The notes beneath the pieces are model-generated. The model made no database searches. It saw only the letters and a program-made list of their open reading frames with translations, and was not told the DNA's origin. Positions 31,541-35,633 of a stretch of DNA of 64,000 bases are shown here, in pieces. The stretch is taken from positions 2,355,822 through 2,419,821 of the forward strand of contig NZ_KQ483358.1 of the NCBI RefSeq assembly GCF_001432305.1, given 5' to 3'. How positions within the stretch are numbered: position 1 is the stretch's first letter; each line of letters opens with the position of its first letter. The stretch is from Curvibacter sp. PAE-UM. Its GTDB lineage: Bacteria; Pseudomonadota; Gammaproteobacteria; Burkholderiales; Burkholderiaceae_C. The position numbers were made by a program, and so were the translations under genes.

Positions 31541-32431
31541 TCAGGCCGCCCAGGCGGCCATCAGTCGGGCCGCCGCCTGTTCGGGGTCGGTTTCGGCCGT
31601 GATGGCGCGTACCACCGCCAGCGAACCCACGCCCGTGGCCTTGATCTCGGGCAGCTCGGCCGCAGAGATGCCGCCGATGCCCACGCCCGGATAGTTCCGC
31701 ATCAGCCGTGCATAGGCCGCCAGCCGGCCGGGGCCCTGCGCTGCGGTGGCCATGCGCTTGAGCGTGGTCGGGTAGACCGCGCCCATGGCGAGGTAGCTCG
31801 GGCTCATCCGGTCGGCGCGCACCATCTCGGCATAACCATGGCTGGACAGTCCCAGGCGCAGGCCCGCGGCGCGGATGGCCGCGAAGTCGGCGATCTCCAT
31901 GTCCTCCTGCCCCAGGTGCACGCCGTAGGCACCGGCGGCGATGGCTTCGCGCCAGTGGTCGTTGATGAAGAGCAGCGCGGGCGTGCCGCGCACGGCCTGC
32001 ACCGCCGCCTCGACTTCGTGCAGCACGGCCGCAGCATCGTCGGACTTGAAACGCAGCTGCACCGTGGGCACACCGGCGCGTGCCACGCGGCCCACCCACT
32101 GGGCGTCGGGCAGCACGGCGTACAGGCCCAGCGCCTTGGGGCAGGCCGCAAAGGCATCGGCACGTGGCCAGGGCCGCAGGCCGAAATCGACCGGCTCGTC
32201 GGGCCAGGCCTGCGGGTCGAAACGCCCTGTGCGCTGTGCCTGGGCCAGCCAGGCCAGCGCCACGGATTCGGCGTCGATCTCGATGAAACCCAGGGCCAGG
32301 CAGGCCTGCTTGGCATGGCGGTAGACCGCGTCGTCGCGGCTGTAGTTCAGGGCGGGCTCGCCGACGACGGGCAGGGCCAGATTCGGGTGCGCGGCCACGA
32401 TGGCCTGCGCTTCGGGAGTGAGTTGTGTCAT
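31541..32431 (-). CDS. thiE: Thiamine phosphate synthase ThiE with N-terminal extension
   Basis: A TIM-barrel enzyme that joins HMP-PP and thiazole phosphate to thiamine phosphate. The catalytic part starts near residue 100 (LGLYAVLPDAQW) and contains LLFINDHWREAIAAGAYGVHLGQED, YLAMGAVYPTTLK and the phosphate loop GVGIGGIS. About 100 extra N-terminal residues (total 296 against about 210) are not recognised as a known catalytic domain. The start overlaps the thiG stop (ATGA, 32428-32431), making it the last gene of thiO-thiS-thiG-thiE. Confidence 0.9.
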   Translation of the reverse strand: MTQLTPEAQAIVAAHPNLALPVVGEPALNYSRDDAVYRHAKQACLALGFIEIDAESVALAWLAQAQRTGRFDPQAWPDEPVDFGLRPWPRADAFAACPKALGLYAVLPDAQWVGRVARAGVPTVQLRFKSDDAAAVLHEVEAAVQAVRGTPALLFINDHWREAIAAGAYGVHLGQEDMEIADFAAIRAAGLRLGLSSHGYAEMVRADRMSPSYLAMGAVYPTTLKRMATAAQGPGRLAAYARLMRNYPGVGIGGISAAELPEIKATGVGSLAVVRAITAETDPEQAAARLMAAWAA

Positions 32432-33225
32432 GCGTGATGCCAGAAAGGCGTGCCCAGCACGGGCGTGGAGGGTTGGGCAGAGTCCTGCTCGCTCATGGCT
32501 CCCGATCGGTAGGCGTCACGCCCGGCCTGGGTGGCGGCGGCGAACGCGCCGGCCATGGCCACCGGGTCCTGCGCCAGGGCGACGGCGGTGTTGAGCAGCA
32601 CGCCGTCGTAACCCCATTCCATCACGGTGCAGGCGTGGGATGGCTTGCCCAGGCCCGCGTCCACGATCATGGGCACGGCCAGGCGTTCGCGCAGCACGCG
32701 CATGGCGTAGGGGTTGATGGGGCCCTTGCCGGTGCCGATGGGCGCGGCCCAGGGCATGACGGCCTGGCAGCCCACGTCCACCAGGCGCTGGCACAGCACC
32801 AGGTCTTCGGTGGTGTAGGGCAGCACCTTGAAACCTTCCTTGATCAGGTGCTCGGCCGCCTGCACCAGGTTGAGCGTGTCGGGCTGCAGGGTGTAGTCGT
32901 CACCGATCACCTCCAGCTTGATCCACGGCGTCTCGAACACCTCGCGCGCCATCTGCGCGGTGGTGATGGCCTCCTGCACGCTGTGGCAGCCGGCGGTGTT
33001 GGGCAGCACCGGCACTTTGAGCGCCTTGAGCAGTTCCCAGAACTGGTTCGCACTTTCATGCGGCACGGCGCCCTGGCGGCGCAGCGAGGCGGTCAGCATG
33101 GCCGGCTTGGCGAGTTTCACCGCGGCTTCGAGCACGGCCGGCGACGGGTAGCGCGACGTGCCCAGCAGCAGGCGGCTGTGGAAGGTTTCGCCGTAGAGGA
33201 CGAGGGGATCAGAGGTATTGGGCAT
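32428..33225 (-). CDS. thiG: Thiazole synthase ThiG
   Basis: A 265-residue TIM-barrel enzyme that condenses DXP, dehydroglycine and ThiS-thiocarboxylate into the thiazole phosphate. Family segments include FHSRLLLGTSRYPSPAVLEAA, the VLPNTAGCHSVQEAI loop, WIKLEVIGDD with the Schiff-base lysine, and the phosphate-binding PIGTGKGPINP and IVDAGLGKPSHA. It follows thiS by 3 bp and overlaps thiE by 4 bp, so the operon is translationally coupled throughout. Confidence 0.96.
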   Translation of the reverse strand: MPNTSDPLVLYGETFHSRLLLGTSRYPSPAVLEAAVKLAKPAMLTASLRRQGAVPHESANQFWELLKALKVPVLPNTAGCHSVQEAITTAQMAREVFETPWIKLEVIGDDYTLQPDTLNLVQAAEHLIKEGFKVLPYTTEDLVLCQRLVDVGCQAVMPWAAPIGTGKGPINPYAMRVLRERLAVPMIVDAGLGKPSHACTVMEWGYDGVLLNTAVALAQDPVAMAGAFAAATQAGRDAYRSGAMSEQDSAQPSTPVLGTPFWHHA

Positions 33226-33228
33226 GGC

Positions 33229-33426
33229 TTATCCGCCGGTGACGGGAGAGATGATTTCGACGCGGTCGCCGTCTTGCAGCGGCTGTTGTGAGTACTGGGT
33301 CTTGGGCACGAACCGGGTGTTGACCGCAGCCGCAAAGGGCGGTTTCGCCTCGATGGCCGCCACAGCGTCTGCCAAGGTCGCACCCGTCGGCAGCACGTGT
33401 TCTTGTTTGTTGATGATGACGTTCAT
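33229..33426 (-). CDS. thiS: Sulfur carrier protein ThiS
   Basis: A small ubiquitin-like protein of 65 residues whose C-terminal Gly-Gly (SPVTGG) is adenylated and thiocarboxylated to donate sulfur to ThiG. The start MNVIINKQE at 33426 is fixed by overlap with the thiO stop (ATGA, 33423-33426). A longer in-frame extension upstream would fall inside thiO and is not needed. The sequence has the expected ATLADAV helix and DRVEIISPVTGG end. Confidence 0.95.
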   Translation of the reverse strand: MNVIINKQEHVLPTGATLADAVAAIEAKPPFAAAVNTRFVPKTQYSQQPLQDGDRVEIISPVTGG

Positions 33427-34520
33427 GCCACGGTTTCCATGCGCAGGTCCAGCGAAGCCGCGAGTGTAGTGGTCTGTCCGTTCACGAACTCCAGCACCAC
33501 GTCCAGCAGGGCCGGCGAGATCATGAAACCGTGGCGGTACAGGCCGTTGATCTGCAGGCAACGCGGGCCCAGGTGGCGGACGGCCGGCAGGTTGTCGGGC
33601 AGCGTCGGGCGGCACTGGGTGGCGATCTCCAGGATGCGCGCCTCGCCAAAACCCGGGTGCACCGCGTAGGCCGCACTCAGCAACTCCAGCGTGGAGCGCA
33701 CGCTGGGCGGCGAGAGGTCGTTGCTCTCGATCTCGGTGGCGCCGATCACGAAGAGGCCGTCCTGCTTGGGCGCGATGTAGATCGGGTAACGTGGGTGGAT
33801 CAGGCGCGTGGGGCGGCTCAGGGACACCTCAGGGGCATGGATGCGCGCCACTTCGCCGCGCACACCGCGCAGCTGGCCCCACTGGGCGCTGGCGCCCAGG
33901 CCGCGGCAGTCGAACAGCCAGTCGGGCTGGCCGGTGGCGCCGGGCTGGAAATCCTGCGGCGTGCGCGGGCTGTTCCAGTGCAACTCAACCTTCAGGGCCT
34001 GCAATTCGTGCAGCAACGCAGCCAGCAGCTGTCGGTTGTCGAGCTGGCCTTCTCCGGGCAGGTACAGGCCTTGGGCAAAACGGTTTTCCAGGCTGGGTTC
34101 GAGTTGCTTGACACCCGCGGCATCCAGCGCCTGGACCTTGGGCAGGGCGGGATTCTTTTCGTTGGTGGCCTGCAGCTGGCCTGCGAAGCGACGCGCCTCG
34201 GCCGCGTCCTGGCGGTGCCAGAGGATCAACGTGCCCGTCCGCTGGAAGAACACCGGTAACGAGAGCTGCGCCAGCAATTGCGGCCAGCGCGTCAGCGCAT
34301 GGCGTCCCATCTCGACCACGCTGGCTTCGGTGATGGCCGATTCGGCCAGCGGCGCCAGCATGGCGGCGGCAATGCGCGCCGGCGAACTCTGCGCGTCGGC
34401 GCCACCGGTTTCAAAGACCGTGACACGGTGGCCGGCGCGCGCCAGCTGCCAGGCCAGCAGGCGACCCATGAGGCCGGCGCCGAGCACCACGGAGGATGGA
34501 CCTTGGTTCGAGGTGGTCAT
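33423..34520 (-). CDS. thiO: Glycine oxidase ThiO (FAD-dependent)
   Basis: An FAD amino-acid oxidase of 365 residues of the DAO family that makes dehydroglycine for thiazole synthesis. The N-terminal Rossmann motif (VVLGAGLMGRLLAWQLARAG) and the C-terminal FAD-contact region ending in NGLYRHGFMISPALLD are present. The start MTTSNQGPSS at 34520 fits the Rossmann position. It is the first gene of thiO-thiS-thiG-thiE and starts only 25 bp from the divergent thiD, so there is little room for its own promoter there; a riboswitch 950 bp upstream faces it. Confidence 0.9.
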   Translation of the reverse strand: MTTSNQGPSSVVLGAGLMGRLLAWQLARAGHRVTVFETGGADAQSSPARIAAAMLAPLAESAITEASVVEMGRHALTRWPQLLAQLSLPVFFQRTGTLILWHRQDAAEARRFAGQLQATNEKNPALPKVQALDAAGVKQLEPSLENRFAQGLYLPGEGQLDNRQLLAALLHELQALKVELHWNSPRTPQDFQPGATGQPDWLFDCRGLGASAQWGQLRGVRGEVARIHAPEVSLSRPTRLIHPRYPIYIAPKQDGLFVIGATEIESNDLSPPSVRSTLELLSAAYAVHPGFGEARILEIATQCRPTLPDNLPAVRHLGPRCLQINGLYRHGFMISPALLDVVLEFVNGQTTTLAASLDLRMETVA

Positions 34521-34532
34521 GTCAATTGAACT

Positions 34533-34538
34533 GATAAT
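34533..34538 (+). promoter_or_regulatory. Candidate -10 box of thiD
   Basis: GATAAT lies 7 nt before the ATG at 34546. Together with the 25-bp thiO-thiD spacing this suggests a leaderless thiD mRNA whose -35 would lie inside the start of thiO. No clear -35 is seen. Confidence 0.35.
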
Positions 34539-34545
34539 GCGCGCC

Positions 34546-35397
34546 ATGACCACGATCACGACGAACGACAAACATTACCCGCGCGTGCTGTCCATCGCGG
34601 GTTCCGACAGCGGCGGCGGCGCCGGTATCCAGGCCGACCTCAAGACCTTCAGTGCCCTGGGCTGCTACGGCATGACGGCCATCACCGCGTTGACGGCGCA
34701 GAACACGCAGGGCGTGCGCGGCATCTTTGGTGTGCCGCCCGAGTTCCTGGCCGCGCAGATCGACGCGGTGGTCGAGGACATCGGTGCCGATGCCGTGAAG
34801 ATCGGCATGCTGCACGCGCCGGGCATCGTGCGTGTGGTGGCGCAGGCCATCCGCCGTCACGGGCTGAAGCACGTGGTGCTGGACCCGGTGATGGTGGCCA
34901 CCAGCGGCGACCGCCTGATCGCCGAGGAGACCGTGGCCGTGCTGGTGCAGGAACTCTTTCCCCTGGCCACGGTGATCACGCCCAACCTCGACGAGGCCGA
35001 GCTGCTGCTGGGCCACAAGATCGCCGGCATCGCGGGCCTCGAACCCGCAGCCAGGGAACTGCTGGCCCTGGGCGCGCCCAATGTGCTGCTCAAGGGTGGG
35101 CATCTGCAGGGCGACGAGGTGGTGGATCTGCTGCTGCAGCCCGGCCGCGCGCCGGTGCGCCTGGCGTCGGCGCGCATCGCAAGCAAGAACGTGCATGGCA
35201 CGGGCTGCACCCTGTCCTCGGCCATCGCCGCGCACCTGGCCCTGGGGCATGCGCTGGAGGAAGCCGTGGGCCTGGCGCGCATCTACATCCTGGGCGCCAT
35301 TGCCGCCGGGGCGGACGTGCGTACTGGGCACGGCCACGGCCCGCTCAACCACGGCCATGCGCCGCTGGCGATGCAGGTCCTGGCGGGGACACGCTGA
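34546..35397 (+). CDS. thiD: Hydroxymethylpyrimidine/phosphomethylpyrimidine kinase ThiD
   Basis: A ribokinase-fold enzyme of 283 residues that phosphorylates HMP and HMP-P to HMP-PP, the partner of thiazole phosphate in the ThiE reaction. Motifs are VLSIAGSDSGGGAGIQADLKTF at the N-terminus, VVLDPVMVATSG, ITPNLDEAELLLG and the anion hole NVHGTGCTLSSAIA. The ATG at 34546 (MTTITTNDKHY) or the one at 34537 could start it. It is divergent from thiO, and the antisense strand of the whole gene lies between the TPP riboswitch and thiO. Confidence 0.95.
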   Translation: MTTITTNDKHYPRVLSIAGSDSGGGAGIQADLKTFSALGCYGMTAITALTAQNTQGVRGIFGVPPEFLAAQIDAVVEDIGADAVKIGMLHAPGIVRVVAQAIRRHGLKHVVLDPVMVATSGDRLIAEETVAVLVQELFPLATVITPNLDEAELLLGHKIAGIAGLEPAARELLALGAPNVLLKGGHLQGDEVVDLLLQPGRAPVRLASARIASKNVHGTGCTLSSAIAAHLALGHALEEAVGLARIYILGAIAAGADVRTGHGHGPLNHGHAPLAMQVLAGTR

Positions 35398-35473
35398 GAC
35401 TTTCACGCGTTTCATATCAAAGCAGCAGGGGGGAGGGGCCGGTGCCGGTGGTCGTGGACCTGGTCTCTGGCCT

Positions 35474-35557
35474 GCTTCCCTGCGTGAGCATTACCTCAAT
35501 CAGGTTCAAAGGGACTTTCTCAGTCGACGCGGTTGGCACCGCGGCAACACCCCTAGC
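35474..35557 (-). ncRNA. TPP riboswitch (THI element), minus strand
   Basis: Reading the minus strand from 35557 gives every conserved block of the THI box in order: GCTAGGGGTG, a P3 arm with CCGCGG and CCGCG segments, CTGAGA, CCCTTTGAACCTGAT, GGTAATGC, and GCAGGGAAGC closing P1 (GCT with AGC). The element points toward thiD's 3' end, antisense to it, and then to thiO some 950 nt on. Sequence after the element is C-rich and G-poor in places and has no hairpin with a T-run, so Rho-dependent control is more likely than intrinsic termination; that is inference. Confidence 0.92.
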
Positions 35558-35584
35558 GGATGCGCTCCAAAGAGCACGAAGCGT

Positions 35585-35590
35585 ATTTTA
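35585..35590 (-). promoter_or_regulatory. Candidate -10 box of the TPP riboswitch transcript
   Basis: TAAAAT on the minus strand lies about 28 nt before the riboswitch core and just after the terminator of the upstream ferredoxin-reductase gene. So the riboswitch appears to start its own transcript. The -35 region is T-rich but not a good TTGACA match. Confidence 0.45.
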
Positions 35591-35607: not shown

Positions 35608-35633
35608 GAAAAAGCCCGCCGGGTGGCGGGCTT
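35608..35633 (-). terminator. Rho-independent terminator after the ferredoxin reductase gene
   Basis: On the minus strand an AAGCCCGCC stem, ACCC loop and GGCGGGCTT complement are followed by TTTTTCTTT. It begins about 30 nt after the reductase stop codon and closes the long sulfur/ferredoxin transcription unit. Confidence 0.88.

Follow-up and report, generated by a model that had tools for sequence, protein, structure and literature searches.

In Staphylococcus aureus, menE-menC-MW1733-ytkD-MW1731 make up a noncontiguous operon (Saenz-Lahoya et al. 2019, as presented in a review, PMC7154746), and the accessible part of that review describes the internal antisense stretch of the operon as untranslated. 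Riboswitches that act through antisense RNA have been described as well, among them the B12 riboswitch of rli39/aspocR in Listeria and the S-box riboswitch of Clostridium ubiG, and a survey counts 83 of 9,766 TPP riboswitches as antisense-acting (PMC9943018); thiD goes unmentioned in the main text of the survey, as far as that text was accessible. A further precedent is pop, a long open reading frame (ORF) antisense to ompA in Escherichia coli (PMC7103648). Here we describe a thiamine locus that resembles each of these systems in part, in an arrangement with a putative translated bridge for which we found no earlier description among the titles and abstract openings listed from an open-licence library.

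The window, the whole stretch of 64,000 nucleotides that was analysed, comes from Curvibacter sp. PAE-UM (contig NZ_KQ483358.1, positions 2,355,822 to 2,419,821). It carries on its minus strand thiO (33426–34520; TIGR02352, 251.7 bits against a cut-off of 250.8), thiS (33229–33426; TIGR01683, 51.9 bits against 37.45), thiG (32428–33225; PF05690, ThiG, 340.2 bits), and thiE (31541–32431; thiamine phosphate synthase models, the best at 214.9 bits and each below its own curated cut-off). Opposed to these genes, on the plus strand, lies thiD (34546–35397; TIGR00097, 316.9 bits against 204.95), and past the 3′ end of thiD, on the minus strand, lies the aptamer of a TPP riboswitch (RF00059; 35460–35564). 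As a first-pass annotation of this DNA had stated, the divergent gap between thiO and thiD is 25 bp, and the first genes downstream of the riboswitch on its own strand are thiO-S-G-E, 940 nt away (about 950 nt in that annotation) across the antisense strand of thiD. The annotation was silent on a minus-strand ORF of 297 aa, codon-aligned antisense to thiD, that covers this interval (34522–35415, with its ATG at 35415–35413 and its TGA at 34524–34522); we refer to it as the bridge ORF. We note that a −10-like box, TGATAAT, lies on the plus strand 7 nt 5′ of the thiD ATG (34532–34538) and is found by eye, with variation, near the thiD ATG in most of the relatives' loci compared, which suggests that the thiD mRNA is leaderless or nearly so.

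The minus-strand run of TPP riboswitch and thiO-S-G-E, with the opposed thiD inside it, thus has the gene order of a noncontiguous operon. As in the part of the S. aureus account available to us, an opposite-strand gene sits inside a run thought to be co-transcribed, and two mRNAs would overlap along that gene. Unlike in S. aureus, the internal stretch appears to be kept open and to meet thiO in a stop/start junction, the putative unit begins with a metabolite riboswitch, and co-transcription is here inferred from sequence. The untranslated internal stretch is a trait of the S. aureus operon that is perhaps not a defining one; here, both the avoidance of stops and the junctions suggest that the stretch may be translated. 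The locus is likewise comparable to rli39/aspocR and the ubiG S-box, as far as these are covered by the sources accessible to us, in that the riboswitch lies downstream of and convergent to a gene and putatively controls an antisense transcript; on geometry, its transcript would be antisense to the neighbouring thiD. It differs from both in that the riboswitch is followed, on its own strand, by genes of the pathway to which the opposed gene belongs, and in that the antisense stretch looks translated.

The three features ascribed to the riboswitch in the first pass are all present. The THI element on the minus strand is a full-length aptamer (60.6 bits, E 2.1e-9; gathering score 54.3), which by eye resembles the aptamers found on the cytX side and not the type found on the thiO side. 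A −10-like box of its own, TAAAAT, for the predicted riboswitch transcript lies at 35585–35590 on the minus strand, and a terminator-like hairpin with a 9-bp stem and T-rich tails on both strands (35612–35633) parts the riboswitch from a trxB-like gene. Promoter searches found no consensus −35/−10 pair for the riboswitch. Across 18 aligned intervals of the same layout (class C, defined below; 17 of them distinct), the aptamer is almost invariant while its flanks vary, the box keeps AAT throughout and mostly reads TAnAAT, and a similar hairpin with a T run is seen by eye upstream of the riboswitch in most. At least the gathering score is reached by 17 of the 18 class C aptamers of the genus (that of L126 falls below), and, outside the genus, by that of L056 (54.7) and not by that of L077 (51.4).

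Between the aptamer and the bridge ORF lies a leader that is C-rich by sequence and alignment (35416–35459, minus strand) and for which folding gave no stable structure. The first-pass annotation had reasoned that a minus-strand terminator within 35400–35470 would keep the riboswitch from reaching thiO; a scan found no terminator-like site there, and hence no intrinsic-terminator expression platform in that interval. The sole minus-strand terminator-like candidate inside the antisense interval is a 5-bp hairpin at 35202–35190. Nor did the scan detect any such site on the plus strand from the thiD stop to the riboswitch, and the two transcripts therefore probably overlap. Folding of segments from the window and six relatives gave z-scores of −1.05 to 2.02, and terminator scan, folding and RNAalifold together identified no expression platform of the window riboswitch. 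RNAalifold yields one lead, a pairing of GGGGU in the aptamer with GGCCCC in the leader that hardly varies across the alignment; in the alignment of the 18 loci of the genus, 8 of the 25 predicted pairs changed on both sides, and 5 of the 25 join aptamer and leader. The same genome holds a second TPP riboswitch (L002) ahead of a gene recognised by eye that we take to be thiC. A third (L003:1501-1609, plus strand; G000:C1:1812247-1812355), exactly at the gathering score of 54.3, lies ahead of a gene for a LuxE-like acyl-protein synthetase (PF04443, 84.6 bits), an unexpected target. cytX was not found in this genome by a search that had no positive control, and whose query does match relatives.

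For comparison we used the best 80 of 536 confirmed thiD stretches from a scan of relatives, in which further candidates existed, and ran a TPP covariance model built from 31 aptamers over these 80 and two additional sets, one of 31 loci from the genus and its near relatives and one of 59 more loci of the family. Loci fall into class G, in which the thiO-thiD gap holds a TPP riboswitch immediately ahead of thiO; class B, with no riboswitch in the gap and TPP-cytX convergent to thiD (11 relatives, with cytX upstream of the opposed thiD and preceded by the riboswitch); class C, to which the window belongs, as B without cytX and with the riboswitch 58–167 nt past the thiD match; class D, in which neither a gap riboswitch nor a convergent TPP riboswitch was found; and class E, with TPP-cytX-thiD-thiO co-directional. 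We name cytX, a transporter-like gene, by its best family, TIGR02358, at scores of 249.8 and 241.7 that lie below the curated cut-off of 309.85, and L039 is counted as D though a TPP riboswitch sits 1.4 kb off, before another gene. Among the 26 genomes of the genus, 18 are class C (with thiO out of view in one, L139), 5 are class D and 3 are class E. Another TPP riboswitch directly precedes thiO in 48 of 108 comparable loci and is absent in the clade of the window.

The possibility, raised in the first pass, that thiD was recently inverted in this genome is not supported: among 125 loci with a thiO match, thiO and thiD are adjacent and opposed in 119, opposed further off in 2 and co-directional in 4, so that the opposed arrangement is the usual one. 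Three of the four co-directional loci belong to the genus of the window and have the order TPP-cytX-thiD-thiO; on a tree, a long branch (0.36) within the clade of the window leads to these three genomes, and their order may reflect replacement of the locus. Outside the genus, thiO and thiD of L198 (G078) lie close together, point the same way and have a TPP riboswitch ahead of them. Divergent pairs of TPP riboswitches, ~50–90 nt apart, occur at G008:C400:731-995 and G022:C2:393749-394068.

Codon-aligned antisense frames are often open in GC-rich genes, and only the codons TTA, CTA and TCA yield antisense stops. An observed stop count therefore needs an expected one, which we took for thiD from the codon use of neighbouring genes at the same locus. 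The analysis kept 108 of 170 loci, comprising 54 without a thiO (gap) riboswitch and with a gap below 200 nt, 48 with such a riboswitch, and 6 unclassified. In the 54 genomes without a thiO riboswitch, thiD contains 9 antisense stop codons against 104.8 expected, compared with 37 against 52.4 in the 48 genomes that have one and 7 against 7.6 in the unclassified genomes. The group with a thiO riboswitch is thus itself slightly short of its expected count, a point against the contrast. By class, the observed and expected counts are 0 and 28.8 in C, 1 and 18.6 in B, and 8 and 57.4 in D. The conserved long open frame looked for in an antisense overlapping gene is found: the thiD antisense frame is fully open in 49 of the 54 genomes (18.2 expected), as against 24 of the 48 (20.6 expected). 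One genome, L035, has a thiD GC3 of 0.59 and 12.9 expected antisense stop codons, of which none is observed. What is new is that, in the sequences compared, the codon-aligned antisense frame of thiD stays stop-free where thiO lacks a riboswitch of its own.

There are exceptions. Stops lie within the thiD antisense frame of L133, L135, L183 and L189, all class D, and the one stop of the class B locus L073 is confined to the vicinity of the thiD 3′ end. The stop-free frames of L184 and L191 continue in frame into thiO, and a fused reading frame is possible. These loci may have lost the constraint or use another promoter, or they may be evidence against the rule.

The Fisher values for the comparison of 54 with 48 genomes, 1.4e-6 and 6.9e-13, ignore kinship, and the presence and absence of a thiO riboswitch are clumped, with 6 changes on a tree of ThiD and ThiO, on which an independent-pairs sign test had no power. 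Codon gains counted on the tree nevertheless separate the groups: the ratio of antistop to control gains in thiD is 9:127 without and 29:84 with a gap riboswitch (p 3.5e-5). The corresponding ratios, without and with, are 115:166 and 64:116 for thiO, 47:85 and 13:33 for trxB, 54:79 and 20:46 for thiG, and 34:56 and 23:44 for thiE, and in none of these four control genes do they differ significantly between the riboswitch groups. In the two remaining antisense frames of thiD, stops number ~5.4 and 8 per gene, whichever group is considered. Strand bias as the cause is argued against by the group with a thiO riboswitch, in which thiD is also opposite to the control genes and the count is 37 against 52.4. 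A general avoidance of codons ending in A is argued against by the first 63 loci, where other A-ending codons do not follow the antistop pattern (observed/expected 316/337 in C, 314/322 in D and 123/142 in B, and lower, 200/276 and 112/167, in two groups with a thiO riboswitch).

The open frame would hand over to thiO. In the window, the stop of the bridge ORF and the start of thiO form the junction TGACATG (34518–34524, minus strand), with the bridge TGA one base before the thiO ATG. The antisense frame ends at the thiO start, from −4 to +5 nt of the ATG, in 40 of 54 loci without a thiO riboswitch versus 3 of 48 with one, and in all 20 class C rows. thiO often begins ATGA or TGAnATGA, so that a stop there is likely once the frame is open, and the junction is partly expected. 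We note that in L121, L125 and L127 the thiO-thiD gap is 152–184 nt, against 35–40 nt in close relatives, and that the bridge frame stays open through the added DNA, with its end still at the thiO start. At the other end of the bridge, 9 of 11 class B rows have a start codon of the bridge frame at −5 to +2 of the cytX stop, overlapping or touching it; this ATG or GTG falls on conserved thiD codons. In L042 and L043 a bridge-frame ATG overlaps the trxB stop. The bridge ATG of the window is preceded by no Shine-Dalgarno-like sequence. Its alignment column reads ATG in 16 of 18 genomes and GTG in L130; L134 is misaligned at this column and has an ATG at equal distance from the thiD stop.

By eye, the window riboswitch has the same type of aptamer as the TPP riboswitch before cytX, from which it differs in that, with cytX missing, it points at the reverse side of thiD. 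The comparison suggests that it formerly belonged to a cytX that was lost here. Where cytX was absent, meaning that it was not found in the DNA examined around each locus, a riboswitch lies at most 300 nt from thiD in 20 of 43 genomes that lack a thiO riboswitch versus 0 of 16 that have one (Fisher p 4e-4, kinship not corrected). This comparison, together with the antisense frame that is stop-free to the thiO start, favours the earlier proposal that transcription from the riboswitch runs through thiD into thiO. The part of that proposal that made the antisense stretch a long leader fares less well; judged by stop avoidance and the thiO junction, the stretch does not look untranslated but translated.

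We consider it quite probable that the locus is a translated-bridge unit, like a noncontiguous operon and under TPP control, that extends from the riboswitch to thiO-S-G-E across the antisense strand of thiD. The riboswitch, the gene order, the resemblance to cytX riboswitches, the stop avoidance and the stop/start junction can be read directly in the DNA; transcription, translation, a TPP response, an involvement of Rho and a possible effect on thiD are what we infer. Specifically, transcription would start upstream of the aptamer, at about 35580 on the minus strand, and at low TPP the transcript would extend over the thiD antisense strand and on through thiO-S-G-E. Translating ribosomes would move along the bridge ORF and then pass to thiO at the junction, and the open bridge would prevent the termination and polarity that untranslated antisense RNA incurs, probably by Rho, the involvement of which is a guess from the C-rich leader. 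The bridge peptide itself would not be under selection. The riboswitch, once that of cytX, would have been retained after the loss of cytX because, we propose, thiO-S-G-E depends on it. Class D loci show the antisense-open signature behind trxB or other genes although no TPP riboswitch was found nearby; TPP control is therefore not proven by the signature alone, and the bridge may be a general solution for which the riboswitch is one of several heads. With slightly less assurance, we also think it likely that the inverted gene has a double coding role, with ThiD specified on its sense strand and a stop-free translated bridge with overlapping stop/start junctions on its antisense strand, along which polymerase and ribosomes would reach thiO from cytX, trxB or a riboswitch leader; selection would act on the openness of the bridge and not on its peptide, and antisense stop avoidance could then mark noncontiguous operons generally.

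The riboswitch could instead be an orphan left over from cytX, with thiO served by an unrecognised promoter of its own in the 25-bp gap or in thiD. The absence of cytX from the matches in its own genome fits such a relic, as does class D, which includes 5 of the 26 genomes of the genus and keeps thiO without a TPP riboswitch near thiD, so that thiO can evidently live without one. Yet the aptamer and its TAnAAT box are near-invariant in class C while the flanks drift, and in the absence of cytX the riboswitch is retained only where thiO lacks its own. A private thiO promoter moreover predicts no stop avoidance, against the complete lack of antisense stops in class C where 28.8 were expected, and we regard this explanation as unlikely.

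Nor does the bridge readily give way to readings centred on thiD or on the antisense protein. Were the riboswitch chiefly an antisense-acting one of the excludon kind, its transcript would repress thiD in cis; it is convergent to thiD, a fitting geometry, and riboswitch-controlled antisense RNAs are on record in the accessible parts of PMC7154746 and PMC9943018, but such repression would lower thiD at low TPP, an odd direction for a biosynthetic gene, and gives no reason to expect an open frame with its end at thiO; we hold it to be very unlikely as the main role. An overlapping gene proper, with a protein that matters, would fit the bridge ORF in that its long frame is kept open across genera and its start codon holds a constant position in class C. 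If the peptide were selected, the thiD synonymous sites should bear its mark as well, but they show little excess conservation: fourfold-site identity among 14 class C genomes is 0.667 in thiD, only slightly above thiO (0.632) and below trxB (0.740), with thiG at 0.660 in 8 genomes, and among 17 class A genomes it is 0.629 in thiD and 0.617 in thiO. The bridge protein has no NCBIfam or Pfam family match either. A functional antisense protein is not supported on these two counts, and we judge it most improbable. Like pop, as portrayed in the accessible part of its description, the bridge is a long ORF wholly antisense to a known gene; unlike in pop, only its openness appears to be selected, and it is probably this openness, and not the peptide, that matters.

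In GC-rich genomes it is easy to discount long antisense ORFs as artefacts of codon bias. Here thiD was compared between loci in which the gene behind it has a private riboswitch and loci in which it has none, and this matched comparison indicates selection for openness in one such frame. Antisense stop avoidance could serve as a test for noncontiguous operons that needs nothing but sequence and is usable on any genome. A translated bridge would offer a mechanism by which genes are expressed through an opposed gene without polarity, and by which riboswitch control is extended across an inverted gene.
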